From: Acorus gramineus
Lineage: Eukaryota > Streptophyta > Magnoliopsida > Acorales > Acoraceae
Direction of reading: 5' to 3'
Length of the DNA stretch: 64,000 bases
NCBI GenBank assembly: GCA_030737835.1
Contig: CM060848.1
Location: 14,697,254 to 14,761,253, forward strand
Part shown: positions 8,782 through 48,100 of the stretch, piece after piece
How the letters are laid out: each line of letters starts with the position of its first letter
How positions within the stretch are numbered: the first letter of the stretch is position 1
Notes under the pieces: model-generated
What the model saw: only the letters and a program-made list of their open reading frames with translations
The model's database searches: none
What the model was told of the DNA's origin: nothing
Position numbers and translations under genes: made by a program

Positions 8782-8792
8782 GAAGTCGCGCG

Positions 8793-21960: not shown

Positions 21961-23430
21961 TTGAGATTATAAAATGACTGGAGTATTGTACCAACACTTT
22001 TATTTTTCTCCATTCAATTCTATTAAACATTTTTTCCTTTTTTTTTTTTTTTGTGTGCCTTAAAACCCTAACAAGATTGGAAAAAAAACATAAGCATAGA
22101 ATAACCTAAAACTCATGCATGCTTATGAGAAGCCAAGTCTTGCACCTGAGAGTCTTCCCCTGTGGGCTCTCTTTTCTTCATCCTCAATTGACATATTTTT
22201 TTTGAGGTAAAATTGTCCTTTTGTATTCATATAAGAGGAGGGAACAAGAGAGGCCAAAACAGGAGCCCACAGAGCACATGAGATGCCACTGAGAGTCCAG
22301 CATGCTAGATCTTGTCTTCCAAGCTGGTTAGAAAACTATTAATTTACTCCATAATATCAATCCTCTATTGATATTATTATTGCTTAGAGCTCTAGTTATA
22401 TATAGCTTTACATGCATTACTCACAATTTTTTAAATTTTTTAAAGGTGTTTATATCATGAGGTATATATTTCATTGAATTATATGAGTTTATTTTTAGAA
22501 AAAGGTAAAAATTTATATGTTTCGCTTATGTAGGAATGTATTTAGCTCGTTGGACATAAACTAACAACAAAACACTTAAATATATAATATACACAAAACA
22601 AGCGCATTCAGACATTGATACTAAACTGAAAATATAATCAATCCAAAACTGTTATGAATCAGTTCTTTATATATATTTTTGATCAATCGATCATCTGCAA
22701 GTGATATATTTTCTGCAGCCAAGCCGAGGCACAGTTCAATAAAGATTCAAAGTGGAAGGAAAAGAACATTAGCTATAAGCAATGCCTAAGACAAAAGGAA
22801 TCCTTCTTGTTGAATAAATGGCAGGTAAAAATAATAGCCTGGCTGGACCAACTGCATTGCTAAAACAAAAGAGAGTCAGCCTTAATTATTTTATTATTGA
22901 TTAATTAATTAATTAATTACATCACAACATTAGGTCTTTAAAGAACAAATGATGCCAAAGAACAGGCTGGGGTCACTGCTTCACTAATTAATAATTATAG
23001 TTTATGGGTGAAAAGTCTATATCTAAGTTCCTTTTGAGGATAAACAATAAATTAATGAGGGCACCAATACTGCAGTGGTTGTCATATCTGTGTTGCTTAT
23101 ACTACTATAAACTTTGGTTTTAAAGAAAAAATAAAAATAACATAAAAGATGGCTTGAATGATTATTACCAACTCTGATGGATGCGCATGTATTCTTGTGC
23201 TTAAATATTGCTGGCTCATGATGTTATAACATGGTAGGGCCCTGGAATTTGTATGTTAAATGATGTGTCTCACCATGCTAGCCAAAACCTGGCTTTGGTC
23301 ATTATAAAGCTAATCTCAATGTACATGTATTATTGGAAGACACGAAGTCAAGCTCCACTGATGATAAGAATCAATTTAACTGATCCATGCTTACATACTT
23401 GGATGATGAATGAGGAATTTATTTTCTAAT
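21961..23430. other. Intergenic DNA upstream of the duplication
   Basis: No coding frame is supported. TTAA tetranucleotide repeat at about 22900-22918. GTGGGCTCT at 22163 faces GGAGCCCAC at 22261 as a short inverted repeat. 23430 is the unique left flank of the 5.8-kb tandem duplication. Confidence 0.45.
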
Positions 23431-23926
23431 CAAAGCTGAGCCATCACTTCTTTTTATGAAGTTTTATATTATTATGATGGATACTGATACACTCAATTAT
23501 TTTTGTAGTTTTAATCTAGTATATGTGTTCTTTATGTTAAAATAATATAAACTCAATTAGGAAAAATACAAGAAATATGGGTTCAAGAAATTAGGATTTG
23601 TTACATGAATCCCATATCCCCAGTGAAATATGTGCTTTTTATATAAGATGTACCATTTTTAAAATTACTGTGTGTATTGAAATATGAATTTCAATCGTGG
23701 CTCTTAACATTAATTTTTTTCCCCTTTGCAAATGCATCAATGTAACATTGATTTTCTGATTGAATATTAATCCCAATTGCCATCTAATTTTTAGAGTCTT
23801 GATTCGGCATCCTCATTAAAACACTTTGATTATTCTTTTATTCCTCGTAACCCCCTCAAAAAATCTAAGAATAAAAAATGGGCGCCGTTACACCCAGATT
23901 CATTTCCAGCTTCAATTCCAGCCCTA

Positions 23927-23956
23927 TATGCGTCGATAGAAATCTATCGACGCATA
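23927..23956. repeat. Perfect 14-bp hairpin palindrome
   Basis: TATGCGTCGATAGA (23927-23940) is the exact reverse complement of 23943-23956 with a 2-base centre. In copy 2 (about 29705-29733) one arm has changed (GCGTTGATAG), so the pairing is not conserved. Confidence 0.85.
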
Positions 23957-24125
23957 TGCTCACATTAACAAGACATATGCTTTAAAAGAATATTTTTATA
24001 TTTTTTATAAATACATTCATGCAATTCATTAGAGTATATATGCTTCATTTTTTATAAAAGCATGTATCTCATTAGATGATGTATACTATTTTTAAAAAAT
24101 TCAAAATACATATAGACTGGAATTG
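23955..24125. repeat. Dispersed MITE-like repeat, family B
   Basis: Blocks in order: ACAAGACATATGCTTT, TTTTTTATAAATACATTCATGCAATTC, a TATATGCTTCATTTTTTATAAAA block, ATGTATCTCATTAGATGATG and a TACATATAGACTGG end. Duplicated with the large repeat at about 29741-29895. Confidence 0.55.
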
Positions 24126-24314
24126 AGACCGAAAATGAAACTGTAGGTAAAAAAATCCATTAAAAAAAAATAGTAGAGGCAATGCAGCCACATATATTTA
24201 AAACAAAATTCATAATTTACATACGTATGGTATTCATTCTTAACTGAATAACTACTTACTATTTAAATAAAAATAAAGAAACAAAAGCCACATAAGAAGG
24301 CCTTCTTGGGCATC

Positions 24315-24334
24315 CACGTGGGGTCCATATAAAA
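24315..24334 (+). promoter_or_regulatory. G-box plus TATA-like element in a GC-rich block
   Basis: CACGTG at 24315-24320 is followed by TATAAAA at 24328-24334, leading into a GC-rich block (about 24340-24740). The same pair occurs in copy 2 at 30091-30096 and 30104-30110. The arrangement looks like a core promoter about 3 kb upstream of kinesin exon 1, but no confirmed transcript unit follows it. Confidence 0.4.
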
Positions 24335-24451
24335 GACGGTCCGTGTTGCACCGGGTCCATCATTTCGCAACAAAATTCTCGCGGGACAAGACAATCAGCT
24401 CTCTCAAATCCTCCAATCCCAAAAAAAACAGTACCAACCAAACGACAACCG

Positions 24452-24664
24452 ATGATCGGACGGTCAGGATCGATTCGTTCCAAAAACGGTAACCCCACCG
24501 AAGGTGACAGGAAGGCAAGCGGGGACGTTTTCTTTGCTGGGCGTACTCGATTGGATGAACGAGAGACCGTGCGCGTTTTCCGTTGGGGGCGGGTGTCATG
24601 TGATGGTGACCCTACACGTGCCCCACTTTTGCCCGCCAAGAACGGGAAACGTTGGGGGGATTGA
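24452..24664 (+). other. 70-codon open frame in the GC-rich block
   Basis: An ATG at 24452, about 120 bp after the TATA-like element, opens 70 codons of basic, R/G-rich peptide with no motif I recognise. In copy 2 the segment holding this ATG is replaced by different sequence (about 30212-30239), so the frame has no equivalent ATG there. That argues against a conserved protein. It may be part of a non-coding leader or chance. Another ACACGTGCCCC G-box-like site lies at about 24612. Confidence 0.15.
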
Positions 24665-25845
24665 TGATGTCATAGTTGAAAAGCCGTTTTTTAGGAGTTC
24701 TTTCTGTTATGGTGCCGTTGCGTTCGCTCGTTTTTAGTTACACAATAAATAAATGCCGTTTTTGTTTTTCCGGAGTTCGTTCAGTGTCGTTGCCTTGGCT
24801 TGTATAGGATGTAATGTAACCCCCAACAATAAAATTTTGGGTTAAAACATTTGTATCCATGTAAACATGGATAATCTTATATAAGCTCATATAAAAATTG
24901 GGACAGATATATGAATCTCTGAAAATTCATAAAAATCTAATTATTATCCTTGGGTTAAAATTTCATTCAAATTTAACAGAATATTTTATCACCGTGTAAT
25001 TGTATAAATATTATAGTCTCCATAATAATCATAAAAATAAATTAGTTCATGCAAATATCATATTATTTTTATAAGACTTTTTATGTTCCTTCATTTTCAT
25101 TGAGGTATTAATTGAAAATGGTTACAAATTTGAGGATAATTTAATTATTTCTTAATTATGGGTTAAAATTAAGTAGGGTAGGTTGAGTTACGATTAATTT
25201 TTGTTGAAACCAGGGATGTATATGGATTTTTGTGAGTTTTCAAGGACTTATACGTTTGCCCTAACTTTGACAAGGACTTATATAGGATTACCCATGTTTG
25301 TGAAGACTTTGGATGTCTTTAACCCTAAAATTTTTCATATTAATATATAAGTGCAAATGTAAATTTTTTTATTAATTAAAAATTATTTATGAAATTTTTA
25401 TTAATACACTTTGATATTAATGATAATTTTATCAACATGTAATGATATAAAATTTTTTTAACTTACACCAGTCCTCGTGTGTTACATGGGATAGTGTTTT
25501 CATTTAAAGAACACGTTTAAATCAAATTACATGGACTGAAATTCTTTTATTTACTAAATAGCCGGATTGACTATAATTTATTTAATTTTATTTAAACCAC
25601 AAAAAATACAGATAAAAATCACTTACTTAATTTTTTTTTAATTTTTTTTTAGTGAAATGTACTTAAATTTATTTTATCTAAGATAAAGAACATGATTGAA
25701 TGAGTTAAGAAGATAAGAAAAAATACAAAAGTAATATAAGATAAAGAAATGAGAAAAAGGTCATGCATGCCAGGTGACCCACAAGCCGCCCCGTCGCACA
25801 ACAACAACCATCAGTTTTCAATTAAAAAAGCTAAGTGACACTCAA

Positions 25846-26095
25846 TTTTTACAATCTCAAATGAAGTCTTATATGCCTCGTTATTTTCCTCAACTCACTG
25901 TATCGAGATTTCTACTTTATTAAAAAAATTATACATTTTTTATAAATAATATTATTCAATTCATTGGAATATATATTTTACTTTTTATAAAAGTATATGT
26001 CTCATTAAAATGGGTATATGATTTTAAAATTAATAAAAATATATGTAGTATGTGTTTTTTATTGTAAAATGGACCGTGTTTAACATTTTGCTTAC
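25846..26095. repeat. Dispersed MITE-like repeat, family B
   Basis: Starts near CACTCAATTTTTACAATCTC and ends near AAATGGACCGTGTTTAACATTTT. The two ends look like short imperfect inverted repeats of each other (ACAC..TC.ATTTT.ACA). Its copy-2 counterpart is about 31606-31860. Confidence 0.55.
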
Positions 26096-26099
26096 AAAA

Positions 26100-27362
26100 T
26101 TGGGTGAGTTTTATAATTGATTGCAATTAATGACTAAGATAGTGTTTGATAGTGGAATTACAAAACTGATATTCTGTAAATGCTAAGTTAAAACTGATTC
26201 TGCAAGAAGCTGCCTCCCCCCAACTTTCTTCAATCGCAGCTTTTAAGTACTATTGATCTGAAATCTATCTACAAAAATTTGCGATTGTAAAACTGTGTGG
26301 TTACACGATTGCAGAACTAGCTTCCTCCAAACGCAAAAGCTGTCAAATCGTAAAACCAAATGCTGCTTGAGATTTCTATAAAAAAATGCAATATTTTTTT
26401 AAGCCTTGTGTAATTTCTTCTTTTTTTATACTTTTTTTTTTTTTTTTACTATTTGTAACTTTTTATTTTTGTTATAAAAATCTATCTTTCTCTTAAAAAA
26501 CTTAATAACTTGTCATTTTATAAAAATAATTAAAAACTGATAATTTGAATAAAAGAATAAAAAATTGTGTCTCACGTCTAGTGTGTGTGTGTATATTTTG
26601 CATTATCCATTGTTTTGTTACGAGATACATTGTTATATAATTATATACGTTATGATATACTATATATACTATGTTATTCCATATGATATATCATCACCAG
26701 ATATATATATATTATATTTATTATATAATTTTTTTTTGCTTATTTAATGACTGCCTACCGTCGTGTCGTCATTATCCGTTGGTAGTTGACTTAAACGACT
26801 TTTTTGAGATAATAACAAATAAAATAAATAAAAAGATATAAAAGTAAAGAACATGACTCCAATAAATCTTTTCCAAAGTTATAAGTGCACGGTGGACCTT
26901 GGATAGCGAAGGGAGGTCGCCTTAATTGCCGCTTGATGCGTATGTTCTTGTCAAGAAAACAAAATCTCTCCCTCCCACCTACCTTACATGACTCACAAAC
27001 ACACGCAAAACAACTCGTCATCACCACCACCAACGAAGCACCCACCCAAAAGTGGCAAAAAGACCGTTCACCCAGTGACGGACTGACGGGGGGAGTACAA
27101 AAAAACAACAATACGCGATTCCCCAAAATCGAACAAAAACAAAAAATAAATCATTTTTTCGGATTCTTGAAAAAAAAAAAAAAAAATTCCCTTCAAAATG
27201 TGGCATCCCTTTTGCAAACCTTTTTAGGGCATCGCTTCTAAAGCAAGTTAGAATCATTTATTTATTTTTATTTTTATTTTTTATTTTTTTAAAAAAATCC
27301 TCCACAAAAAGCACTCCGCATTTTTCACCTCTCACAATTTCCGATCCGATCGGACGGCTTCC
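26100..27362 (+). promoter_or_regulatory. 5' flank of kinesin module, copy 1
   Basis: Intergenic DNA before the kinesin start codon at 27363, duplicated in copy 2 at about 31860-33188. AT-rich to about 26870, then more balanced with a short run of C-rich sequence, a 17-A tract (~27170-27186) and a T-rich stretch before the ATG. No convincing TATA box close to the ATG; the leader ends CCGATCCGATCGGACGGC. Promoter function is inferred from position. Confidence 0.5.
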
Positions 27363-27778
27363 ATGGCGTCCAGACAAGCTCCGAAGTCGAAGAAATCGAC
27401 GGCATTGAGACCTTCGAAGGCCGTCGGCGGCGGAGATGGAGTCGCTAATTCACCGTCCTCTTCCACTGCCTCGATCGACTGCCAGGGCTCGCCGGTTTCG
27501 TCGTCGGTGCGGGTCAGATCGCAGCCGCACCCGTTCGAGGAGAGGTCGAAGGAGAATGTCACGGTGACCGTCCGGTTTCGTCCGCTCAGGTTTGCTTCGA
27601 TCGGTTGTGTTTTTTTGTCGTGGTTTGAGATGTGGTTCTGTTTTTTGGTTTTTGGGATGATATTGTGTCTGGGGGTGTAGCCCGAGAGAGATCCGGCAAG
27701 GGGAGGAGATCGCGTGGTACGCGGATGGGGATACGGTCGTCCGCAGCGAGCACAATCCGTCGATCGCTTATGCTTATG
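27363..27778 (+). pseudogene. Duplicated 5' end of kinesin-7 gene (exons 1-2 only)
   Basis: Exon 1 is 27363-27589 and exon 2 is 27681-27778, with the donor GTACGTGG after it. Both are identical by eye to exons 1-2 of the complete gene in copy 2 and are open, with intact splice sites and upstream flank. The encoded part is the Ser/Lys-rich N-terminus, [10 protein letters not shown] and the first motor strand block up to SIAYAY. No exon 3 exists in copy 1; the duplication ends inside a LINE at 29200. Alone it is a truncated fragment. If transcribed, its exon 2 (donor phase 1) could splice in frame to exon 3 at 36460, giving the same protein, so it may instead be an alternative first-exon module. 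Confidence 0.85.
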
Positions 27779-28448
27779 GTACGTGGTACGTGGCGCTTTT
27801 TTTGGTCCTGGATTGGTTGTCTGATTGATCCTGTTTTTGTGTTTGGCCCAGTTTTCGATAATTTTAATTTGTTATGATCTGTGCATTGTTATTTTCTGGG
27901 TGTGGTTTTTGTTGCTTAAGGTAATGAAAGAGTTTATTAGTGATTTGCGGTTAGTTTGCTGTAATGGTAGCTGCAGGAAATTGTGGTCTTCGCTTGTTGT
28001 TTGATGATTGAAAAGTAGGGCGTCAACCGAAACCAAGCAAATTCGGATTCACTTGCTATCTTTATCCTTTTGATTGAATCAATCAAAATCAGGGTTGCTT
28101 ATGACGGTAAAAAATGATTTTTGGCAGATGAAGGCTAGTCGGGTCTACCATATTCATAGCAGGCTTGAAAAAGGCCAATAAAAGGAAGGCGAAGCATGAA
28201 TTTAGGGAATTTTTTTGTTATTGGAAAGGCGACGCATTAGTTTGTCTAGAATCAGTCTTGTTTAAGTTGTTGCTATTGAGTTCTTTGAAAGAGTGGTAAT
28301 TTAGCTTTGTTGTGGTTTATGAATGGGCCTTGTTTAGGAGACCTTGAGTGTCACAGATTTGGAATAGTAATAGTAGGGGAGATTCTTAATTTTCATAGTC
28401 CAAGTTGAATTAAGGTTTCTAATGTTACTCTATACATTAACTGGTTAG

Positions 28449-28486
<38 letters not shown>

Positions 28487-28493
28487 ACCCCCC
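28449..28493 (+). repeat. Poly-C tract C38-A-C6 in intron, copy 1
   Basis: Thirty-eight consecutive C, one A, then six C, followed within 20 bases by a T tract. The counterpart in copy 2 (34275-34297) is C23. Confidence 0.9.
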
Positions 28494-28949
28494 GAAAAGG
28501 AGGTCAATTTTTTTTTTTTTTAACGAAAAAATGGTGTTTCCCATACACAGCAACTGGTTATCTCCTTTTTTGGAATTAAGAGTTGCTGACCGGCAAACCA
28601 AAGTTCGGCTTTGTATTATTTGCCTTCAGTTTTTTAGAGTTCCTTTATGTCTTAGACTTTTTGTCGGCCTTTCTTGTTTTCAACATATTTTTTCAAATTT
28701 CCATCAACTTTAGAATCAATTTCTACAATATTTCGTACTTAGTTACCCTTTCAGAATTTTATTTTATTTATTTTTCAAATTGATCCATGGAAACCCTAGG
28801 CTTCGAGGATCATCTATAGCTACATGCCACCCTCTATCCAATTCTGTATAAGGTGGCCACTGACAAGGACCTAATATGTGATTCATTCATGTGTAACATC
28901 ATTTGCTGTCTAAGGTTTTGGTGCCTCCCGTTCTGACGCAGTCTAAACC

Positions 28950-29200
28950 AGGTGATAGAGGAGCTCATCTCACTATTGGCATCACTTCAAGAGATGCATT
29001 TGGATTTGGAAAAAGTAGACATGGTGATTAACATCTCCCCAACATGGATTCTCCATCAAATCCTTTTATGGACGGTTTACCGGATCCTTCTTGTGATACT
29101 ATCTCCTCTCGCTTCATTCCTCTTCTTTGGAGAGTCAACTCCCCTATGAAAATCCGGTGTTTTATTTGGTTCTTCACACATGACAAGGTTCTCACAAAAA
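28950..29200 (+). mobile_element. LINE reverse-transcriptase remnant, truncated at junction
   Basis: Translation at about 29044-29200 gives [17 protein letters not shown] followed by [10 protein letters not shown]. This is the zf-RVT region found after the reverse transcriptase of plant LINEs (W-x-PxK-x-F-x-W...LLT). The sequence stops at the duplication junction. The same stretch in copy 2 continues to a LINE 3' end at about 35640. Confidence 0.7.
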
Positions 29201-31834
29201 CAAAGCTGAGCCATCACTTCTTTTTATGAAGTTTTATATTATTATGAATTTATGATGGATACTGATACACTCAATTATTTTTGTAGTTTTAATCTAGTAT
29301 ATGTGTTCTTTATGTTAAAATAATATAAACTCAATTAGGAAAAATACAAGAAATATGGGTTCAAGAAATTAGGATTTGTTACATGAATCCCATATCCCCA
29401 GTGAAATATGTGCTTTTTATATAAGATGTACCATTTTTAAAATTACTGTGTGTATTGAAATATGAATTTCAATCGTGGCTCTTAACATTAATTTTTTTCC
29501 CCTTTGCAAATGCATCAATGTAACATTGATTTTCTGATTGAATATTAATCCCAATTGCCATCTAATTTTTAGAGTCTTGATTCGGCATCCTCATTAAAAC
29601 ACTTTGATTATTCTTTTATTCCTCGTAACCCCCTCAAAAAATCTAAGAATAAAAAATGGGCGCCGTTACACCCAGATTCATTTCCAGCTTCAATTCCAGC
29701 TCTATATGCGTTGATAGATTTCTATCGACGCATATGCTCACATTAACAAGACATATGTTTTAAAAAAATATTTTTACATTTTTTATAAATACATCCATGC
29801 AATTCATTAGAGTATATGCTTCATTTTTTATAAAAACATGTATCTCATTAGATGATGTATACTATTTTTAAAAAATTCAAAATACATATAGACTGGAATT
29901 GAGACTGAAAATGAAACTGTACGTAACATAATCCATTAAAAAAAAATAGTAGAGGCAATGCAGCCACATATATTTAAAACAAAATTCATAATTTACATAC
30001 GTATGGTATTCATTCTTAACTGAATAACTACTTACTATTTAAATAAAAATAAAGAAACAAAAGGCACATAAGAAGGCCTTCTTGGGCATCCACGTGGGGT
30101 CCATATAAAAGACGGTCCGTGTTGCACCGGGTCCATCATTTCGCAACAAAATTCTCGCGGGACAAGACAATCAGCTCTCTCAAATCCTCCAATCCCAAAA
30201 AAAACAGTGCCAACAACAACCCGCTTCGACCACCAACCAAAAACGGTAACCCCACCGAAGGTGACAGGAAGGCAAGCGGGGACGTTTTCTTTGCTGGGCG
30301 TACTCGATTGGATGAACGAGAGACCGTGCGCGTTTTCCGTTGGGGGCGGGTGTCATGTGATGGTGACCCTACACGTGCCCCACTTTTGCCCGCCAAGAAC
30401 GGGAAACGTTGGGGGGATTGATGATGTCATAGTTGAAAAGCCGTTTTTTAGGAGCTCTTTCTGTTATGGTGCCGTTGCGTTCGCTCGTTTTTAGTGACAC
30501 AATAATTAAATGCCGTTTTTGTTTTTCCGGAGTTCGTTCAGTGTCGTTGCCTTGGCTTGTATAGGATGTAATGTAACCCCAAACGATAAAATTTTGGGTC
30601 AAAGACATTTGTATCCATACAAACATGAATAGTTGTATATAAGTTCATGTGAAAGTTAAGATAGATATATGAGTATCTAAAATTCATAAAAATCTAATTA
30701 TTATCCTTGAAAATTTCATTCAAATTTAACAGAATATTTTTATCACCATGTAATTGTATAAATATTATAGTCTCCATAATAATCATAAAAATAAATTAGT
30801 TCATGCAAATATCATATTATTTTTATAAGACTTTTTATGTTCCTTCATTTCCATTGAGGTATTGATTGAAAATGGTTACAAATTTGAGGATAATTTAATT
30901 ATTTCTTAATTATGGGTTAAAATTAAGTAGGGTAGGTTGAGTTACGATTAATTTTTGTTGAAACCAGGGATGTATATGGATTTTTGTGAGTTTTCAAGGA
31001 CTTATACGTTTGCCCTAACTTTGATAAGGACTTATATAGGATTACCCATGTTTATGAAAACTTTGGATGTCTTTAACCCTAAAATTTTTCATATTAATAT
31101 ATAAGTGCAAATGTAAATTTTTTTATTAATTAAAAATTATTTATGAAATTTTTATTAATACACTTTGATATTAATGATAATTTTATCAACATGTAATGAT
31201 ATAAATTTTTTTTAACTTACACCAGTCCTCGTGTGTTACATGGGATAGTGTTTTCATTTAAAGAACACGTTTAAATCAAATTACATGGACTGAAATTCTT
31301 TTATTTACTAAATAGCCGGATTGACTATAATTTATTTAATTTTATTTAAACCACAAAAAATACAGATAAAAATCACTTACTTAATTTTTTTTAATTTTTT
31401 TTTAGTGAAATGCACTTAAATTTATTTTATCTAAGATAAAGAACATGATTGAATAAGTTGAGAAGATAAGAAAAAAATACAAAAGTAATATAAGATAAAG
31501 AAATGAGAAAAAGATCACGCACGCGCCTAAGTGACCCGCAAGCCACGGGCCGCCCCGTCGCACAACAATGACCATCAGTTTTCAATTAAAAAAGCTAAGT
31601 GACACTCAATTTTTACAATCTCAAATGAAGTCTTATATGCCTCGTTATTTTCCTCAACTCCCTATATCAAAATTTCTACTTTATTAAAAAATTTATACAT
31701 TTTCTATAAATGATATTATTCAATTCATTGGAATATATATTTTACCTTTTATAAAAATATATGTCTCATTAAAATGGGTATATGATTTTAAAATTAATAA
31801 AAATATATGTAGTCTGTGTTTTTTATTGTAAAAT

Positions 31835-31942
31835 GGACCGTATATAACATTTTGCTTACAAAATTGGGTGAGAGTTTGATAATTGATTGGACCGTATATA
31901 ACATTTTGCTTACAAAATTGGGTGAGAGTTTGATAATTGACT
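31835..31942 (+). repeat. 54-bp tandem duplication private to copy 2
   Basis: GGACCGTATATAACATTTTG starts at 31835 and again at 31889, each unit ending TTTGATAATTGA. Copy 1 has a single unit (from about 26070). It therefore arose after the 5.8-kb duplication, or was lost from copy 1. Confidence 0.9.
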
Positions 31943-33188
31943 GCAATCAATGACTAAGGTAGCGTTTAGTAGTGGGATTACAAAACTGATATTCTGTAAA
32001 TGCTAAGTTAAAACTGATTCTGCAAGAAGCTGCCTCCCCCCAACTTTCTTCAATCTCAGCTTTTAAGTACTATTGATCTGAAATCTATCTACAAAAATTT
32101 GCGATTGTAAAACTGTGTGGTTACACGATTGCTGAATTAGCTTCCTCCAAACGCAAAAACTGTCAAACCGCAAAACCAAATGCTGCCTAAGATTTATATA
32201 AAAAATGCAATAATTTTTAAGCCTGGTGTAATTTCTTCTGTTTTTATACTTTTTTTTTTTTTTTACTATTTGTAACTTTTTTATTTTTGTTATAAAAGAT
32301 CTATCTTTCTTTTAAAAAACGTAATAACTTGTCATTTTATAAAAATAATTAAAAACTGATAATTTGAATAAAAGAATAAAAAATTGTGTCTCACGTCTAG
32401 TGTGTGTGTGTATATTTTGCATTATCCATTGTTTTGTTACGAGATACATTGTTATATAATTATATACGTTATGATATACTATATATACTATGTTATTCCA
32501 TATGATATATCATCACCAGATATATATATTATATTTATTATATAATTTTTTTTCTTATTTAATGACTGCCTACCGTCGTGTCGTCATTATCCGTTGGTAG
32601 TTGACTTAAACGACTTTTTTGAGATAATAACAAATAAAATAAATAAAAAGATATAAAAGTAAAGAACATGACTCCAATAAATCTTTTCCAAAGTTATAAG
32701 TGCACGGTGGACCTTGGATAGCGAAGGGAGGTCGCCTTAATTGCCGCTTGATGCGTATGTTGTTGTCAAGAAAACAAAATCTCTCCCTCCCACCTACCTT
32801 ACATGACTCACAAACACACGCAAAACAACTCGTCATCACCACCACCAACGAAGCACCCACCCAAAAGTGGCAAAAAGACCGTTCACCCAGTGACGGACTG
32901 ACGGGGGGAGTACAAAAAAACAACAATACGCGATTCCCCAAAATCGAACAAAAACAAAAAAATAAATCATTTTTTCGGATTCTTGAAAAAAAAAAAAAAA
33001 AATTCCCTTCAAAATGTGGCATCCCTTTTGCAAACCTTTTTAGGGCATCGCTTCTAAAGCAAGTTAGAATCATTTATTTATTTTTATTTTTATTTTTTAT
33101 TTTTTATTTTTTTTTAAAAAAAATCCTCCACAAAAAGCACTCCGCATTTTTCACCTCTCACAATTTCCGATCCGATCGGACGGCTTCC

Positions 33189-36100
33189 ATGGCGTCCAGA
33201 CAAGCTCCGAAGTCGAAGAAATCGACGGCATTGAGACCTTCGAAGGCCGTCGGCGGCGGAGATGGAGTCGCTAATTCACCGTCCTCTTCCACTGCCTCGA
33301 TCGACTGCCAGGGCTCGCCGGTTTCGTCGTCGGTGCGGGTCAGATCGCAGCCGCACCCGTTCGAGGAGAGGTCGAAGGAGAATGTCACGGTGACCGTCCG
33401 GTTTCGTCCGCTCAGGTTTGCTTCGATCGGTTGTGTTTTTTTGTCGTGGTTTGAGATGCGGTTCTGTTTTTTGGTTTTTGGGATGATATTGTGTCTGGGG
33501 GTGTAGCCCGAGAGAGATCCGGCAAGGGGAGGAGATCGCGTGGTACGCGGATGGGGATACGGTCGTCCGCAGCGAGCACAATCCGTCGATCGCTTATGCT
33601 TATGGTACGTGGTACGTGGCGCTTTTTTTGGTCCTGGATTGGTTGTCTGATTGATCCTGTTTTTGTGTTTGGTCCAGTTTTCGATAATTTTAATTTGTTA
33701 TGATCTGTGCATTGTTATTTTCTGGGTGTGGTTTTTGTTGCTTAAGGTAATGAAAGAGTTTATTAGTGATTTGCGGTTAGTTTGCTGTAATGGTAGCTGC
33801 AGGAAATTGTGGTCTTCGCTTGTTGTTTGATGATTGAAAAGTAGGGCGTCAACCGAAACCAAGCAAATTGGGATTCACTTGCTATCTTTATCCTTTTGAT
33901 TGAATCAATCAAAATCAGGGTTGCTTGTGACGGTAAAAAATGATTTTTGGCAGATGAAGGCTAGTCGGGTCTACCATATTCATAGCAGGCTTGAAAAAGG
34001 CCAATAAAAGGAAGGCGAAGCATGAATTTAGGGAATTTTTTTGTTATTGGAAAGGCAATGCATTAGTTTGTCTAGAATCAGTCTTGTTTAAGTTGTTGCT
34101 ATTGAGTTCTTTGAAAGAGTGGTAATTTAGCTTTGTTGTGGTTTATGAATGGGCCTTGTTTAGGAGACCTTGAGTGTCACAGATTTGGAATAGTAGTAGT
34201 AGGGGAGATTCTTAATTTTCATAGTCCAAGTTGAATTAAGGTTTCTAATGTTACTCTATACATTAACTGGTTAGCCCCCCCCCCCCCCCCCCCCCCCGAA
34301 AAGGAGGTCAATTTTTTTTTTTTTTTAACGAAAAAATGGTGTTTCCCATACACAGCAACTGGTTATCTCCTTTTTTGGAATTAAGAGTTGCTGACCGGCA
34401 AACCAAAGTTCGGCTTTGTATTATTTGCCTTCAGTTTTTTAGAGTTCCTTTATGTCTTAGACTTTTTGTCGGCCTTTCTTGTTTTCAACATATTTTTTCA
34501 AATTTCCATCAACTTTAGAATCAATTTCTACAATATTTCGTACTTAGTTACCCTTTCAGAATTTTATTTTATTTATTTTTCAAATTGATCCATGGAAACC
34601 CTAGGCTTCGAGGATCATCTATAGCTACATGCCACCCTCTATCCAATTCTGTATAAGGTGGCCACTGACAAGGACCTAATATGTGATTCATTCATGTGTA
34701 ACATCATTTGCTGTCTAAGGTTTTGGTGCCTCCCGTTCTGACGCAGTCTAAACCAGGTGATAGAGGAGCTCATCTCACTATTGGCATCACTTCAAGAGAT
34801 GCATTTGGATTTGGAAAAAAGTAGACATGGTGATTAACATCTCCCCAACATGGATTCTCCATCAAATCCTTTTATGGACGGTTTACCGGATCCTTCTTGT
34901 GATACTATCTCCTCTCGCTTCATTCCTCTTCTTTGGAGAGTCAACTCCCCTATGAAAATCCGGTGTTTTATTTGGTTCTTCACACATGACAAGGTTCTCA
35001 CAAAAACAAAGCATGCAAAATGGATGAAGGAAATATTGTTTGCGATAGCCGATATGCAGTGAGGAAGAAACAAGAGATCATTTATTTTATGGCTGCCTCC
35101 ATAACATCTGTATTTGGTCCAAGGAGGAACCAGCAATTCAATTGAACTTAGAATTCAAAAATTTGAAAAAAATGTGGGAATGGTTCCAAAGGAGGAGAGA
35201 TGACCAGAGCACCAAAGAAAAATTCCAAGGCATCATCCCTCATTTCTTGGGGTATTTGGCTAGCTTGCAATGACTGTGTTTATCAAAGGAAAAGACCCTA
35301 TGAGGAAAATGTTTGGGCAGGGACTGCTGCTTCTCTTTGCACTTGGGTTGGGCAGTGATTGTGGCTTCTATTCATGCTTTGGTGAATGTGCTTCTAGTAG
35401 ATTATTTGTTCTCAATATCATGGCAAAAAAAAAAAAAAAATTGAAATGGGTTGTAATTTGTTGTGTTAAGGGGTTAGATATGTCCTTGTTTGTGGTAAGC
35501 CCTTCCATGGTTTTCCTTTTTGTTATCTTTTGTTTCCTCTTTTATTGGAAATCCCTTGTCTCCACTTGTTCGAGGGGCATCATCTAATAATATGTTGCCC
35601 CAATCTTCATTCAAAAAATAAAAATTTAAATTTAAATAAAAAAGAAGAAGAACCAGCCCTGCTGACCTCAGGTTTCGTCCATTCCTTGCTTCCTGACCTT
35701 TAAACAAAAAATTAACCTTATTCAAATTTTCTAATATTCTCTAAATTATCGAAGTTTGTATCCCAAAATTAGAATTTATTTGAGTTTTTTTGTATTACCA
35801 ATATGTGAACCCTGATTTTGAGTTTAATTTTGTGTTTTTTGGTGCTGAAGTAATTAGAGAAAGGAAGTGATAGGATCTTACGTCAGATTGGAAATATGTG
35901 GAGACACAAGTCCATTGTATGAGTTTTCTTCTACTTGTGACCACCTGAAATACTAAGAATTCAATTTAAGTGAACTCAACCTGTTCCCTGAGAGTTCAGG
36001 TGGGATTTATGGATCTTTCTATGCTCACAAATTGGTGCCTAATATCTTAACATGTCAATTTACTCGCTAAACCACTACACAAAAATATACCAATAATTTG

Positions 36101-39100
36101 GGTTGTGGATTGTCTTTATTGACAACAAGCTTTGGTTAAATGATTATCATTTTTCATTGCCTGAGCTAAATTATGGTGAAATACCTATTCACTGTATTCA
36201 GTATAAAATGTGAAAATATATCTGTCTCTTTGATGGTTCTAATATTCTATATGAAATCTCCTACCTTCAATTATATATATTGCAATCCTAGTTGTTCTCC
36301 TTGTATTAGGGCAGATGGTATCCAGTCACCATTTTTTCCTGCAAAAGTTGTGGAATTCATTAGATTGATGTGAAAGTAGTCTGTTTTGCAAAAATCCATT
36401 ATATCTTTCGAACACGAATAGTTTGTCTTCATTGCTGACCTGCAATTTTTTCATGCCAGATAGAGTTTTCGGGCCTACAACCACAACACGTCATGTCTAT
36501 GATGTTGCTGCTCAGCATGTTGTTAGTGGTGCAATGGAGGGCGTAAATGGTAAGTGATGTGCCTTTTTTTTTGTGATGAGTGCTTTTGTGTTTCTTTGGT
36601 GCAAGTGAGATTGATATGCATTATTTTTGACAAGTGTTTTGGTGCTCCTTTTGTGCAAAGGAGTTGAGATCTAACATGCATTGCCTATATGTCTTTTACT
36701 CTCTTTGAAATTGTATTTCTGTTTTTTGTACAATTAGTGACATCTTCTCATAAGAACTGGTATGATCCATGAACATGTTGAAAAGATTTGGATATATGTG
36801 ATGTGGTAATAAAATGATATGGATTATTACTGTATTCTGAGTATGGATGCTAGGATAGGATATGACGAAGTATCATCGTATGCAAAATATTTAGAAATCC
36901 CTTCTCTTTTTGTTCAGGGGCTTCTTTTTGAATAAGATTGCTTCTATCATTTTTCTCAAAAAAAAAAAACTGTTATCTCATGTCGTTTGCTGGAATTTGG
37001 AATAAACACAAAAAAAAAAATAACAGTTTTCTTCCAGGAGTGGGGTATTTTTTGCACCGGAGAGCCGTATTTTGTATTTGGGAGGCCGCATTTTCATTGA
37101 GAAGTAGTGTGTCTTTTGTTGGCCGTGCCTGACCCCTTTAGATTTTTGTCTAAAGGAGGCGGTCATGGGGCCATTCTTTTTATCCTGTACCTTTGAAATT
37201 TGGGCTTCGCCCTATTTATAATATGGGAGGTAGCCCACCATTCAATTAAAAAAAAAAGGGTTTTCTAAATGACAGTAGTAGCAGAATTCTAAATATTCCC
37301 ATTGGTTTGAGTGGTCAGACCATGTGGATTAGTTATAAAATGAAAATGAAATTTCATGGGAACTCCATGCTTTCTAGCTGTAACACCTGGGATGCCTTGC
37401 TTAATCTATAGCATATGGATGACTAACAAAAGTTAGTAGTTTGTCTTATTTTTGTTTATTTAATAAATATTTGAAGAAACATGCAATGAACCGTTCATAT
37501 CGACATAAATTCAATGTGATATTTTGTCAATAAATGCAAAATACTTATTTACATAATTTAAGCATTACTAATGGAAGGCTGGTGCATGCCTGGAGTTATG
37601 TTAATTTTCTAGAATGGTGTATTGGGTTTATGGAATCAAATTGTATAAATCGCGACCACAAGTTTGTGTAACAATCCAATGAATTGGAAAACAAATATTT
37701 TGAAAAAAGGTGGACAAATCTACCACTCTATATTAAACAACTTGGAATTTAATTCTCCAGATTTCTTCTTTATTTTTCCAACTCTCCCTTTACATTACAT
37801 TTTCCCTGTTACCATGTAGCATTTTTGGTTACATGTTATTTTCTTACTTTATTTTACAGAATCATGTAGCTGATATGATATTATCCTTTTGTAGGGACAA
37901 TCTTTGCTTATGGTTGTGACAAGTAGTGGGAATTACGTTAATTTTCTAGAATGGTGTATTGGTTTATGGAATCACCTTATATAAATCACGACCACAAGTT
38001 TGTGTTTAACAATTCAATGAATTGGAAAAAAAAAATATTTTGAAAAAAGGTGGACAAATCTACCACGATATATTAAACAACTTGGAATTTAAATGTCCAG
38101 ATTTCCTCTTTATTTTTCCAACTCTCCCTTTACATTACGTTTTCCCTGTTACCATGTAACATTTTTGGTTACATGTTATTTTCTTACTTTATTTTACAGA
38201 ATCATGTAGCTGATATGATATTATCCTTTTATAGGGACAATCTTTGCTTATGGTGTGACAAGTAGTGGGAAGACTCATACGATGCAAGTAAGCTCATTGT
38301 TCTTTCACTTTTTTGAAACCACACAGTTAATTTTCCTGTTTGGTTGTCAATATTTGTGGTGCAATGGACCTAGTTTTCTGGTGCTGTGGGTAAACCTTAG
38401 AGTGTGTGTGTGTGTTCATGTATGTTTAAATGTTGAGAAAATAGATTTTGGCTTTCCATTCTATAAATTATTTTTTTTATCACTTACGTAAAACAAGCTA
38501 GCTGAGTTGACTCCACTTGTCTTTGGTTTATCTACATATGAGACCAGATCTGAATGCTCGAGTGTGTGTGTGTGTTCTCATGTGTGTATAAATGCTGAGA
38601 AAATAGATTTTGTTTTTCCATTTTATAAAAAAAAATTTATCACTCATGTAAAACAAGCTAGCTGAGTTGACTCCACCTGTCTTTGGTTTATTCTACACAT
38701 GAGACCAGATCTGAATGCTCAGGCTTCACATTTATAATAATAATCCTTAAACTTGGGCTTTGGTCTGGATTATACTGAATTGAGCTCTGAACTCAAACAA
38801 GCTTGGTTGGCACATTGACAGCCCTTGGTTGCTAGCTGTTCACAAGTTTTATATGAGCCAGAGCTAAATTTTTGTCAAATATTTCAATAATGTCAAATAA
38901 CATGGTTTTTTAGTATGTTGATGGTATTTTGTTAGAGGTGGGTCTTGAAACGTATGGATGGGCTTAGATACACTGACACCTAGCATGTTTTGGTCTCAGA
39001 ATTAGAGGTGCAGAAGGAGAAGACTTCTTAAATTTTGTTTTGGGACTAAGAGATGGTTGAGCAAGAATACCTTGGTATATCAGGTGGAAAGACATTCAAC

Positions 39101-42100
39101 ATGCCATTATGGAAAGGAGGGATTTTTTTTTTTTGAGATAAAGATAGGAACTTTTATTAATTAAAAGCCCCCGAATAAGAGGAGACGAGGGATCTCCAGA
39201 CAAGCAAAAATAATAAAATTCGATTAGGATAAAAACTCTCAATAGAAAAAAAATACATAGAACTAATTCCTCACAAACCAAGAATGACCCATAATCGTGG
39301 AAGGATTATCCACTTGGAGAATTATCTCCACCCAATCCCTTAGCACATATGATGTTTGCTCCCAATTATTCTCCACATACACCCTCTTTTTTTTTTTTGA
39401 AGAGACCTTCATTCCGAGTCAACCAAATACACCAATATACCACATGAGGAATAAGCCACTAAAATTTAGCTTCATTACTACGATCGCTTTTCTTCCTTCG
39501 TTGACGGAAAATATTCCACCTCATCAATATTAAGGAAGCAAAAAGTCGAACCAAATAGCCTTCACAACCAGCTCCCAAATCGACATAATGAAAGGGCATC
39601 TAAAGAATTAATGGCTCCTATCCTCCTTGGCATCCCCGCATAGCAAACAAGTAGTATCACTATCATGAGCCCATTGATCAATTGACCTTGGTGAGGACTT
39701 TGTCTAAAGAAAGGAGCCACATGAAAGCCCTTATTTTTAAAGGCGCAAGAGCCCCCCAAATCAGATTGTGGACTTTAGCAGTTGGAATAGGAGAAATTTC
39801 GTTATTGATCTTCCTGTAAAGGGTTTTCACAGAGAATCCAAGTTGAGGGGCCAACTGCCATTTCACCATATCTTCATCTTCCAGATTTAAGTCGACACCT
39901 TGAAGAAAATAAGTGATAAAATATAGATGATGGGTACCCTGAATTATATGGGAGATATTAGATGATTGCAGATTACTGGACTTCAATGCTTGGCTGGAGG
40001 CTTTTCCATTATGGTACGCTTGGTCGGAAAGTAGTAGTTGATGAAATATAGATGATGGATTGATGGGTACCCTGAATTGGTTTGTCCATTTTAGTCTGTC
40101 AGGAAGAACAAGTGAATTTTGAGGGAAGAACCCTGTAGCTAATGGAGGTGATGGCAGAAGAGAAGGAAGTGCTGATTCAGTTTCACCCAACTGCAATATG
40201 TGAGAAGGTGATGATGATTTAAGGTGAATGGAGAATTGTAATCTCAGAGATATTACTGACAGGAATAGTGAAATTTTTATAGCACTTGTAATTGGGAATA
40301 CAAGTTAAACGGGAACAATGAAGAGTTCTTTTGGAGGATATTGAGCATTCTGATGCTATTTTTTCTTTAATGCATCATAATTTTTGCAATCTAAAATAAG
40401 CCATTTTTGGAATAAGCCATTTTTGTAATTCAACTTGATATATTATTCTAGTTCTGTTTTATCAAAAAAGATATTGTTGTTCTCTGTGACCTGTAAAATT
40501 TTGTTTCTTTCTTGCTTTTGTATGTATGCATGTACTCGTAAATCATAATATAATTTTTTTTTCCTTTTGCATTGATGCACAGAACCAAAAATAGTCAGTG
40601 TAGGGATTTATTGAGTAATCACTTTTCAAAACTAAATAAATACAATTGCAGGGTGATCAGAGGTCTCCTGGTGTTATTCCCTTGGCTGTGAAGGATGCAT
40701 TTAGTATCATACAGGAGGTAACTGGGTAACATTGGTATTTATAAGCCTTCAATTTTGCAAAGCTATATATTCAACGTATTACATTTCGTTGTTCCAGACT
40801 CCGAGCCGGGAGTTTCTCCTCCGCGTGTCATATTTGGAGATTTATAATGAGGTCTGTTCTGTTCTCGTTCTTTGTGTTTTTTCTTACTCATTGTTTATAT
40901 CCTGTAGAAATTAGCTGGTTATAGCCCTACTCTAGTTTACTTCCATACAATGTGAAAAATGTATTTGTAAGGTGTTTAAAATTTCTTGTCACGAGTTACA
41001 GAACTCCAGTTCTTGGTTTATCATGTCTTTCGTTTTAGAAAATTCAGTAGATCTGTTGTGAGGTCATTTAATCAGCTTCACAAAACTAGATTATTTTAGT
41101 TTCTCCCTGATCAGCTCTTTTTTTACAGACAATCAAATTCATAAATGCATGGTTGAGCAATGGTGTGACAACATTGATCAAACTTAAACCCTGGATTTTT
41201 GGTTACCAATATTTGCTTTTAATATTTCATTTTTGTTTCTGCCCATCAATATTAATTCTCATTTTAGTATACTTAATTAAAACCCAATGTTCTCTTGTCA
41301 ACTTTTCCATGGTTTATCTTTGGAAGAATTTCCAAATGAATGAACAAATGTGATTGTTTGTACCATCTATTTATTTACTTATTCATCCAAGTCTTTCCCA
41401 TTTCAGATCATTAATGATTTACTAAATCCAGCAGGCCAGAATCTTAGAGTCAGAGAGGATTATCAGGTTATACTTTCTCTTATTGCTCAGAAATTCCCTT
41501 TTTTTTAAATTATTTTCATATCATCTTAAAATCGGTTCATCATGTGTACATGTTACTCTGCTCACATGGACTTCTGCATTACAGGGAACTTTTGTTGAGG
41601 GAATCAAGGAGGAAGTTGTTCTGTCTCCTGCCCATGCCCTGTCACTCATAGCAGCTGGAGAAGGTAGCCTTTTTTATTCATATGATCTTTTTCTTTTTTG
41701 TTGGTTGTTCCTCACATTCACTACTGCAGTCCCAGGTGCCTTCCACACTCTTGAGTGCTTGATATTTCATGCATGTAGATGCTCCATTAAAGTGCTCAAA
41801 ATTCTTAGAGAAGTGGATTTTCCATTAGTTGCCTTTATTCGACCATTGATTTATTATTAATTACTGTAGTTAAAAAATGTGAAAACATTTTCCATCGTAC
41901 CCCACTATATAAATTTTTGTATGTGAAAATGTATTTTTAAATGTTACTTTGGATCATGTATCAAACTAAGTGTTTTCATCTAGTTGTGCTTCATAACCAT
42001 AAGCATCGCCACCATTGTTGCTGTCACCTTTGTGGTCATTGGAATTGTAGACAAATTTATTTTGGATTTTGATGGAATTTGGGGAATTTTTTTTTTTTTT

Positions 42101-45100
42101 TGGTGAGGGGAGAGGGGGGGGGGGGGGGTGTATTTATAGGTTTATGAATATTAAGGACTAATTTTTTTTGAAGAAAGGAGGTGAGGGTGAGTGGGTTGGC
42201 AGGAACACCTACAGCCCTCCTTCGATAGGGCCCACTCCCAATACCAAACGAAGTGTAAGCAACTTGAAATTCAACTACTGTTTGTTTAGGTGGGTTCTTG
42301 GTCTCCAACAGGTCCAACAATTACTCTTCAATAATTTTTTTAAGTTACCGGATTTGATTGGCTGATCTGACGTGATATCAGCGATATACCATGAGAAATT
42401 GATATATCGCTGACGTTAACAGTTTTTCGTAAAAAAAATGATAATACCACTGTTTTTATTAATTTTTGAGGAAAATCAATATATCAATCATGAATTTGAT
42501 ATATTGATTGATATTTTAAATTTTGACCTCACCCCACTGGGCCTTTTTGATTGTTGGGTTTCCATCTAGCCAACTTGGCTTTGATACCAAATGTATTGCC
42601 CTATGTTGCGTTGCCCCTAAGCAGGATCATGGATTTAAAATGTATCTTGATGCGTAAGAGTTGTGCTCAGATATAATAATTTATTATCTTTCTTTGCTAG
42701 GCGATGTGGGACTAAATCATGTCGTTGACCTCACCTCTCCCTATTCAACATGGTTTTTTTGGACTCTTGAACTTTCATCTCAGCTCAACCTCCCTCGTGG
42801 GCCCAACGTCCTTCTTGTGGTCCTGTACCCAATCCACGTAATAAAGAATATGCTTTGATAGTAAATCTTCCATTTTATGACTGATAAGCTGGGTTTTTTT
42901 TTTTTTTTGCGCTAAGGATCTCATAACAGATCCCTTTGTTGCTTGTCTATTGGTTTCCAAGAATTTGGCATCATGTATAGAGAGTTGATATCAAGTTGTC
43001 AGCCAGTCATAAAACTACATCTACCTTCTTGTGATGCTTTTAATTTCTTCAAGATGTGTTTCATGATGATCCCATCTTGATTTGCCGATTTTTTTTTTCT
43101 TTTTTGTTTTCACCTTTAGATGTTAATCTTATTATGTGTTTACTGATAATATTTTTTATGCAGTGTGATTGCTATTAGTCCTTTGATTATTTGCACAATT
43201 TTTAATGAATCAAGTTTCTTTCCTTATGCTGCTGCTGATGCAAATGGTTTTGGGTTTATGACAGAGCACAGACATGTGGGATCCAATAATTTTAATCTAC
43301 AAAGCAGCAGAAGCCATACAATATTTACACTGGTATATGAACTATGATGCGACCACTCTGTCTTTCTACTTGTATGCAAACAAAGAAATATTATGTGTGA
43401 TACAAAAAAAATTGAAAGATTTTATGTAACACTAAGATGTGGGAAAGATTTATTTCAGTTCCTTATTTTGGTATTTGTTTACCCAATCGAGAATATATAG
43501 GTTATATTGTTTCCTCAAAGCATGCAAGTAAGGTGGACTAATTAATTCTGTAATATATTGGATGTGAATCATTGTCCTGCAAATATTGGATTGTGTCATG
43601 ATTAGGGTCATTGTCAATTGAATAGCTCTAATTGGAGCCATTTGTTCTTCTAGAATAAGAAACATTCAAGTTTTCCCCATTTGGCATTTATTTTTCTTGT
43701 TTCTGTTTCATAGGTTTTGTTTATGTATAATACCTTCTCTCTGTTTTATTGCTAACAGACAATAGAGAGCAGCCCTTGTGGTGAATATGGTGATGGAGAA
43801 GCAGTAAACCTTTCACAGCTTGTATGTTATATTTACTTTTCCTTGCGCTCAGCACTCTCTAACCGCTTAGACTTGGCTTTATTTTGTTTTCTCTCTCTAT
43901 TGAGCAGATTGATTGTTCCATTATACATAATGGATCAGAGATTCCAATTTGTTTTTGTTCTTCCTTATTGTCAAATTATTTTGTGATTACTTATATAATT
44001 TTACTTATATCTGCAGAACCTCATCGATCTGGCAGGTTCAGAGAGCTCAAAAGCTGAAACTTCTGGTTTACGTAGAAAAGAGGGGTCATACATAAACAAG
44101 AGCCTATTAACACTTGGAACGGTAAGGCCTCAAGCATGGTTCTTTGTTTTTCTTGGTGTTGCACATGCTTAAATTGCAATATTGCAATAGTTTTTGTCTC
44201 ACGTTATCTTGTGATATTTAAAATTCCTTAAGGGCTTGTAATTACAAATATTTAACTAATGCTTTGGTAATATAATATGTAGTTGATGTACATATTACAT
44301 GATGAACTGGTGTATGAGCTGGTTGATGTACATATTACATGAAATCTATGATGGGCAACTGAACATATTTTGCATTGATGCCCTTCTTACTGCCATTTAA
44401 TATAAACAGATCCATCCACTCGCATTTACATGGCTGTTCATTGCATATTCATTTGTCTATATCAAACATATTTGGGTAAGGAGCTTATTTATAATTGAAC
44501 AAGATTGGAAACATATGAAATCTGAAAACTCCTGAAAGTTAATTATTGTGTTGTATAAGGATAGACACTTATGCGCTGTTGTTGGGGACAGCACCAATGC
44601 ACAGACATATGTTGACCCCTTTTTTTCTTGAAAAGAGGGTGGGAACAATTATGTGAATGAAAATTGCCATTCAAATAAAAGGCTACGAGGGATCTCCGTA
44701 ACAACAAAAATAGAAACCGAAAAAGGGAGATGGGAAAACTCCAGGAGGAGAAAACCTTTCAAATTAAGTTCTTAAATTGCATGCGTGTAAGGTGGGCCTA
44801 ATTTTATTTTTACAACTGGCCACATCTACACTTGTATTGATGTGGAATATGTTAGTCTTGCAGGTCATTGCAAAATTAACTGATGGAAAGGCCACACATA
44901 TTCCATACAGAGACTCAAAGTTAACTCGGCTCCTTCAATCTTCTCTAAGTGGTCAGGGACGTGTATCTGTAAGTTTTAGCATACAGAAACTTCTGAAACC
45001 GGGGCCAGACAGTGGAACAATTTCTAAACTGACTGCTGCTTTTCAATCCACAGCTTATTTGTACTGTTACCCCTTCCTCAAGCAATTCAGAAGAGACACA

Positions 45101-48100
45101 CAACACTATGAAGTTTGCACACCGTGCAAAACACATTGAAATTCAAGCTTCACAAAACAAAGTATGTAGGCAGTTTCCATTTATGGTCTTCAGGATACGG
45201 GATTGATATCATGACAAGGATGCCCATTATTGTTCTCTAAGAACAGCTCACACTACACACACACAGAAGTTTGTTTTCTATGAGACATTTTAATATATAG
45301 AAAAACTTGCAACCATGAGATGAATAATTATAAAAACCATGTTGAATAATGTAAAATATGCAAATTTGGCAATTTGTATGTGGTGAAGAGAATTGTGGCC
45401 ACATTGTAGGGCATTGTCCTTGAAATGAGTAGATACATATTCTACAGAATTACTGTTTCTTGTGATGAACTCTTATTGAAAAAATCATCACAATTAACAC
45501 GTGTTTCTGGTAGATGATTTGGACAAAGATCCATTCAGATTTTTTTCTGACTTCATTTTATTTTTCATGCTTTTCACTACTTTTTGCTTCACTCTATTTT
45601 GCTTATCAAGTTCTGTACCCAGTTTTCTTGTTATGAATTAACATGAATATGATATGTAATGCAGATTATTGATGAGAAATCTCTCATTAAAAAGTATCAG
45701 AATGAGATCCGCAGTTTAAGGGAAGAGCTAGAGCAGCTGAAAAGGGGAATTGTGACCATCACTCCTCTAAAAGATGTTGGTGATGATGATATTGTCATCT
45801 TGAAACAGAAGGTATTTCCAAGAATTTTTTGGAATTCCGGTAGTTTTTTCTTGGATTTTATGCTTTGAGGGGTAGGACTCATAGATTTCCATATCCCAAA
45901 ATATTTTATCAGAGAACTGTTTTGTTTATGTTCTTCAGGTGTAATTGGTTTTATTTAGCACAATCATCAAACTCCATGAGATCTTTAATTATATTCTCAG
46001 CAACTGTCTTTGAAGTGTATTGAAGTTTGAAGTTTGACATCAATTTTCAACATGGTGGTTACTTACACTGCTCCTTTAAATTGAAATTTTTTTTTTTAAC
46101 CGAGGTCATTCATCTTATTCATCTTCAACATTCTCTCTTTATACACACACACTACACGCGCGCGCGCGCGCACGCACACACACTAAGAGAATGGAATCGT
46201 ATCAGTCAGTAAGAAGGAAGTCCAAAAAAGAAACTGGGTAGCGGTAGAAGAGGCATCTACTGCAAACCTGGTCCCCAAAACCTCACTCCTCAATCAACCA
46301 TTTTCCTCCCACAAAGCCCGCTCTACTAGCCCCAGCACAACACAGTCCCCCTAGTTTCTGATGAAATTTCAAGAGCTCCAAACATTATCTTGAGGTTGAA
46401 TGTCCTTGCTTCATGGGAGCTGTGACCTATCAGAACTGGAGTCTTTAGTCTATGCAATGGTTTGATAATTTTATTTTTTACACTGCTGTCTTACATTGGG
46501 ATTTTTTTTTTAAAGTAAGGTCATCCTTTTTCAATATTTATCTAAGGTTGAAAGTCCTTTCTTCAAGAGAGCTGTGGCCTAGAAACTTGGATCTTTTGAA
46601 TCTTTGTAGTCTATGCTATAGTTTGATAATCTTATTATCTTTGGTTTTATTTTTGCCAAGTCACTTGCATGTCTCTTCATTTATTAATGCTATCATGTTT
46701 GAATTTATGTTTTGTTGACACAATGGAATATTAAGGGGTTAACCTACAGCCGGAAGAGAGTTTCATTAAATTGTATTTTTTCTATCCAACACACTGGTTT
46801 ATCCCTTTGTAGTTATATTTTTTAAGGATAACTTTTGCTCCATTATCTGTTCTGAAGAATTCTACTCTTGTCATTCTAAATTTAATTATTGGAAGGAAAT
46901 ATTTTTCTAAATTTAATTTAAATCTTTATGTAATTAAGCACGTGTCATTAATTTATATATTATTTATAGATTTGACACCACGTGATAATTATTGTAATGT
47001 TGAATTAAAAACTATCCTTTGTACCACCAGTTGGAAGATTTCATTACCTCTTATGGTTGTCACAAAGCCTTTCATCTCTCAATCAGAATTCTGAAATATC
47101 AATATCAAAATACAACAGTAGGCTTGGTGGCCTTCTGCTTGGAGGAATCCTTTCTTTTGGGCTTTTGTTATTTCCTTTTTCTTTTGCTTTGTTTTCCTCA
47201 TTTATTTTCCTTTCTTTGTTTTAGGAGATCGTCATCTCCATTTGTTTTAGGGGCATCAGTTTCTTCATGATTGTTCCAATCCTTCATTCAAAAATTAATA
47301 ATAAATATATATATATAAAATAGATATAACTGCACTAGTTCATTGTTTCCATTAGCAAGCATTTTTTAAAATGAAATCTGACTTAATTTAAAGTGCATGA
47401 TCTTAATCTGAACTGTATAGTAAATTTGGATAATAACAAAATGAATTTGACAATTAAAGGGAAAGTCTTTCAGGACATCAGATAAAATTGGAATGATATA
47501 GAGAAGATTAGCATGGCCTTGCACAAGGATGATGACACACAAATAAAAAAACTGTCTAATTTTGTCAAAAAAAGAACAATGGGAAAATCTTTGGATATGA
47601 ACAAGAGAACAGTGTTATTGAGTGGTGAAATGTGGGCAGAGTTGGGGTGTTTTGATCCTTTTATGTGTAATTTTTGAAATTCCCAATTTTTTATTTTATT
47701 TAATTCTTTGGACATGCTATGATATGAAAAGCTAGAAGATGGTCAAGTCAAGTTGCAGTCCAGGTTGGAGCAAGAAGAAGAAGCGAAAGCAGCATTACTC
47801 GCAAGGATACAGCGGTTAACAAAACTAATTTTGGTGTCCACCAAAGCAACACAGTCATCAAGTTTTCCGCAACGTCCTTGTTCGCGCAGAAGACATTCTT
47901 TTGGGGAAGAGGAGGTTTAGTATATTGAACTTCTCACACATTTCTTTTTCTCCTTTGAATTTTAAACTACACCACTTAAAGTTTGTCAATGAATAACAAC
48001 CTTCAAGTCTAATCTAATTATTAATTAATATTTTATTTAAATTAAATGATGTAAATTTTTTATTCTTCAATTGTAGCTTGACTGATGATTATCTTTTACA

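Follow-up and report, generated by a model that had tools for sequence, protein, structure and literature searches.

How does a plant gene behave when its promoter region and first exons stand twice in front of a single set of downstream exons? This question is raised by a 64-kb stretch of Acorus gramineus DNA (the window), in which a unit of about 5.8 kb carrying the promoter region and coding exons 1 and 2 of a kinesin gene is repeated in direct orientation (Table 1). The explanation favored here, which we hold to be fairly probable, is that the duplication is real and that copy 2 is the main start, with the anatomy, reading frames, splice-site letters and stop position read from the sequence, and the correctness of the assembly, the activity of both starts and the splicing inferred.

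Table 1. Positions of the repeat, the kinesin exons and associated elements in the window
Feature	Position	Strand	Remarks
Copy 1 of tandem duplication	23431..29206	+	last six bases (CAAAGC) are the first six of copy 2
Copy 2 of tandem duplication	29201..35012	+	from sequence, alignment and self-comparison
Putative new joint between copies	29201..29206	+	CAAAGC microhomology
Diverged middle of repeat	23923..26502 (copy-1 coordinates)	+	101 of 110 substitutions; holds MITE-like element
Near-identical part	26503..29206 (copy-1 coordinates)	+	exons 1-2 with proximal upstream region, beginning of intron 2 and LINE fragment
MITE-like element	about 24828-25331 (copy 1)		within diverged middle; many relatives in genome
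Coding exon 1, copy 1	27363..27589	+	227 nt, phase out 2
Coding exon 2, copy 1	27681..27778	+	98 nt, phase out 1
Coding exon 1, copy 2	33189..33415	+	identical to copy 1
Coding exon 2, copy 2	33507..33604	+	identical to copy 1
LINE-type fragment (zf-RVT piece) across right breakpoint	34764..35088	+	relative L027; PF13966 below Pfam cutoff
Exons 3-14, kinesin motor part	36460..45811	+	single in window; open frame, all modelled introns GT-AG

Boundaries and origin of the repeat

The hexamer CAAAGC is present at the left edge of the repeat, at the joint between the copies and at the right edge. It is preceded by T, A and A, and followed by TGAG, TGAG and ATGC, respectively. Comparison of the window with itself gave a paired alignment that starts at 23428/29198, three bases before the start of the repeat, and stops at 29206/35012. 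Since these limits match the ends of the repeat, no long homology flanks it, and with short identical bases at the joint the pair has the form of a microhomology-bounded tandem duplication. The preliminary description had reported direct tandem repeats with the hexamer and differing neighbors at three junctions, and had ascribed them to microhomology rather than to a crossover between long repeats. Both readings held, as did the start and the joint, but the right end of copy 2 moves from 35006 to 35012 once the microhomology is counted.

As for mechanism, two ends sharing six bases would have been joined, either by end joining or by template switching during replication, which are indistinguishable here. 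Among random breakpoint pairs from positions 20001-36000 of the window, 1679 of 400,000 (0.42%) shared at least six bases, a single number that treats the breakpoints of a false joint as random. The six-base microhomology argues for a genuine joint over an arbitrary placement of haplotypes in series. In a set of rice copy-number variants, 52.98% were assigned to non-homologous recombination, taken as a whole and not as the share with microhomology, and 0.48% to recombination between long repeats (PMC4812662). The kinesin repeat resembles the rice non-homologous variants in having few or no shared bases at its breakpoints; unlike it, the rice variants come from a different species and are deletions with respect to a reference (PMC4812662).

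The LINE-type fragment that lies across the right edge matches PF13966 with E = 1.8e-4 (22.6 bits versus a cutoff of 27.5). Its relative L027, on contig C8, gave a single alignment with it (237 identical of 342 columns, 69%), gap-free at the right-edge CAAAGC (35007-35012). The sequence to the right of the edge matched the colinear place in L027 by itself (80% over 69 columns, E = 2.6e-12). At that place the stretch that follows the joint in copy 1 gave no match better than E = 0.2. Because L027 aligns straight through the right edge, this edge is probably ancestral and the joint at 29201 derived, as judged from one genomic place (L003 is the same place as L027). The new joint is located in what was formerly the second intron of the kinesin gene.

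The kinesin gene

The joined exons 1-14 (441 aa) encode a complete kinesin motor domain (PF00225, E = 5.4e-105, profile positions 1-327 of 327), and further coiled-coil-like open frames run on to a stop at 53908. When a 420-aa query was compared by phmmer, the top two among the 60 matches listed of 154 were CENP-E proteins (E = 1e-79 and 1.6e-79), the closest of the relatives with solved structures, with kinesin-1 following at 1.4e-71. The gene is thus predicted to be CENP-E-like (kinesin-7-like), a class taken from best matches rather than from a tree; the plant names for such a kinesin are presumably KIN7D/MKRP. At another locus (L026, contig C7) the DNA is similar to exons 1-2, 3 and 4, with one exon 1-2 module in the 9.9 kb covered.

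Exons 1 and 2 are open and letter-identical in the two copies, and so are the splice-site letters examined, although the exon identity has low power, as about one difference is expected in 325 nt at 0.34%.

Two further features of the introns were recorded. A tandem duplication of about 340 bp (37592-38271, 93.6% identical) in intron 3 takes in the exon 4 acceptor and the first bases of that exon, which places a decoy acceptor upstream of 38235. A second LINE-type fragment lies on the minus strand of a kinesin intron (39678-40304; zf-RVT, 26.4 bits versus a Pfam cutoff of 27.5).

Predicted transcripts and a known precedent

The copy-2 module adjoins exon 3 across a 2.9-kb intron. For transcripts starting in copy 1, joining exons 1-2 to exon 3 removes an intron of 8681 nt and gives the normal protein, as does joining copy-1 exon 1 to copy-2 exon 2 (5917-nt intron). 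When copy-1 exon 2 is joined to copy-2 exon 2 (5728-nt intron), 98 nt are repeated and the shifted frame ends within exon 3, with the stop at CDS position 508. Direct joining of exon 1 to exon 3 meets an immediate stop at CDS position 229. Exon 2 brings along an acceptor of its own, so that a transcript from copy 1 reaches another exon-2 acceptor ahead of exon 3. For exon 2 of copy 1 this is the closest acceptor, and it is the frameshifting one, which makes productive use of copy 1 uncertain.

It had been proposed beforehand that each copy holds intact exons 1-2, that the exon 2 donor is in phase 1 and joins exon 3 at 36460 in frame, that both modules can encode the same protein and that an exon 2-exon 2 join breaks the frame. 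The identical exons and the joins above bear this out. Left unstated was that the frame-breaking acceptor is the nearest one for copy-1 transcripts. The proposed choice between two equivalent promoters and aborted transcripts was sound in regard to the near-identical modules but incomplete, the join of copy-1 exon 1 to copy-2 exon 2 having been omitted.

A close, experimentally shown precedent is PEP1 of Arabis alpina, in which a tandem repeat contains part of the promoter and exon 1. Both copies of exon 1 are spliced to one exon 2 from two starts with different expression, and in accession Paj the same protein is predicted from both (PMC3527215). As in PEP1, the kinesin gene has a partial tandem duplication inside one plant gene, with part of the promoter and the first exon repeated and the other exons shared, and its exon copies are separated by 5.8 kb versus 6.3 kb in PEP1 (PMC3527215). 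The kinesin arrangement, with its upstream region and exon 1 doubled, its later exons common to both copies and either copy in frame, belongs to a class that PEP1 already represents. Unlike PEP1, whose repeat is limited to exon 1 and neighboring sequence and whose inner copy has no known acceptor, the kinesin gene repeats exon 2 together with its acceptor, and a frameshifting repeat exon is therefore possible. In addition, the upstream regions have diverged in PEP1, whereas their proximal parts are alike in the kinesin gene, and the two PEP1 starts were shown by 5' RACE, whereas those of the kinesin gene are predicted from sequence. Among open papers, with the hits partly surveyed and judged by their titles, no report of this kinesin duplication was found.

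The most serious alternative accepts the duplication as real but holds that copy 1 is silent or gives dead-end transcripts only, all kinesin coming from copy 2. We consider it possible, if somewhat improbable. The order of the acceptors favors it, the copy-2 exon 2 acceptor being met well before exon 3 and leading to the early stop. Nevertheless, the coding exons and splice-site letters are intact in both modules, and the proximal upstream region (26503-27362) is nearly identical, with 2 substitutions in 856 columns and four indels of 1-10 bases. Shortly before the start codon, the copies are distinguished by a 10-base indel after 27283 and a substitution at 27290, which could serve to separate the two starts if the 5' UTR extends that far. 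PEP1 demonstrates that splicing can pass over an inner copy (PMC3527215). Skipping is also made plausible by the pyrimidine-poor acceptor tract of exon 2 (43% of 23 bases, versus 70% for exon 3), a weak argument because the figure for exon 5 of this gene is as low as 39%.

In the favored explanation, copy 2, beside exon 3, would provide the main start for productive transcripts, and copy 1 is probably transcribed too, because its proximal upstream sequence is nearly the same as that of copy 2. Both starts would be expected to fire. Splicing of copy-1 RNA could pass over the second module entirely, which would leave the protein unchanged, or could enter the second exon 2, with an early stop and likely nonsense-mediated decay. 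We think that copy 1 may yield a mixture of normal and dead-end mRNAs, and the chance that it contributes any normal mRNA appears about even. Removal of the 91-nt first intron may rely on its own nearby donor.

Divergence between the copies

Global alignment of copy 1 with copy 2 gave 5720 aligned columns with 110 substitutions and 25 indels. With segment limits picked after looking at the data, there were 0 substitutions in 492 columns of the first segment, 101 in 2550 of the middle (4.0%) and 9 in 2678 of the last (0.34%), so that the middle is about 12 times as diverged as the last. This uneven identity, absent from the preliminary description, also fits two haplotypes, and owing to it the copies have no one simple age. 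At two plant substitution rates, 7e-9 and 2.5e-9 per site per year, the last segment alone would give 0.24-0.67 million years.

In the alignment, an insertion of 56 bases doubles a 54-bp repeat unit in copy 2, and copy 1 is 22 bases longer in a C-rich tract. The 54-bp-unit tandem duplication, at 31834-31940, is confined to copy 2. Uninterrupted poly-C in intron 2 measures 38 bases in copy 1 (28449-28486) and 23 in copy 2 (34275-34297).

At one end of the MITE-like element, a patch of 94 bp (24824-24917 in copy 1, 30581-30675 in copy 2) differs by 18 substitutions. Counting only columns in which at least 14 of 18 MITE relatives agree, 14 changes outside the patch were common to both copies and 5 were private. 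Within the patch, over its securely aligned portion (24847-24917), 6 were common and 8 private. Conversion within the element through a hairpin was rejected as the source of the patch, the left ends being closer to each other (score 122) than to their own right ends (60 and 51). Conversion of the copy-2 patch from another present-day element was not supported: its best other match is copy 1 (85%), the next is at 83%, and no close donor was found among the 40 of 95 genome candidates scored. CpG change was discarded as the main cause of divergence. Of 77 transitions, 21 lie at CG, compared with 336 of 1996 C/G positions of copy 1 in CG (17%), and such change may add some of the divergence, not most.

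We read the mosaic as the result of a recent duplication whose middle was derived from, or exchanged with, a diverged haplotype. The opposite course, an old duplication with both ends later homogenized by gene conversion, would account for the crowding of 101 of the 110 substitutions into 44.6% of columns (binomial P = 9e-26, with limits chosen post hoc) and for the 18 within one 94-bp patch. It is unlikely nonetheless, as both outer ends are near-identical and two separate conversions would be required, whereas a single exchange of the middle with a diverged haplotype would be simpler.

Copy number and the possibility of an assembly error

The 399-Mb assembly was searched with parts of the repeat. 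The query 27000-29200 had two full-length places, and three other matches were short and 67-82% identical (all five candidates scored). The query 23431-26500 also had two full-length places, the remainder being repeats (40 of 8868 candidates scored). A third full-length copy was not found with either query. For the right flank, 35013-37590, there was one full-length place and 39 other matches were short (40 of 111 candidates scored). Within these scored candidates, a separate alternate haplotype was not seen in the assembly.

Less likely again than repeated gene conversion is an assembly error in which the two haplotypes of a single promoter-exon 1-2 region, having diverged, were placed in series, a 'heterotype' false duplication. 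The mosaic, in which the central 2.6 kb differ by 4.0%, agrees with differences between alleles. Against this stand the six-base microhomology, with its low frequency by chance, the absence of N letters from the 64-kb window, the lack of another full-length copy of either repeat part in the assembly, and the size of the 5.8-kb unit, which is shorter than the usual long read; none of these is decisive. False duplications are one of the commonest assembly errors and can pass for exon duplications, and the heterotype form arises at sites of haplotype divergence, according to one account (PMC8081667). The haplotypes-in-series reading keeps weight for this reason.

Tandem repeats in the background and neighboring frames

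Short tandem duplications are ordinary in this genome. Eight adjacent tandem pairs with units of 72-282 bp were found in 7 of 12 stretches of 10 kb (contigs C1, C3, C5 and C7; 120 kb), taken at fixed positions and of a length unable to reveal a 5.8-kb pair. The same filter, which misses some window pairs that Tandem Repeats Finder lists, returned four tandem pairs in the window, the 5.8-kb one included. Short tandem duplications in the window lie at 38400-38720 (unit 160 bp), 10583-10736 (81 bp), 54110-54361 (122 bp) and 18529-18604 (38 bp).

Two neighboring reading frames were also noted. The frame at 61443-62165 on the plus strand encodes an AAA ATPase that resembles a replication factor C subunit. 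The frame at 8059-8835 on the minus strand encodes a C2H2 zinc-finger protein (zf-C2H2_6, 23.8 bits versus a cutoff of 25).

Meaning of the duplication

In the preferred account, a fairly recent 5.8-kb tandem duplication would have doubled the first two exons of the kinesin gene together with its promoter region; the likelihoods given to the alternatives overlap with that of this explanation. Very improbable is a dampening role, in which the outer start would mostly yield exon-2-repeated mRNA that is destroyed, the splicing choice over the 98-nt exon would set the kinesin dose, and outer transcription through the inner promoter would lower or time the inner start.

The case is of moderate interest because its class is already known from PEP1. 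If real, the duplication would be a natural test of how a plant cell handles two almost identical promoter-exon modules in one gene. The 98-nt repeat would provide a built-in frame check, with the outcome of splicing readable from RNA.
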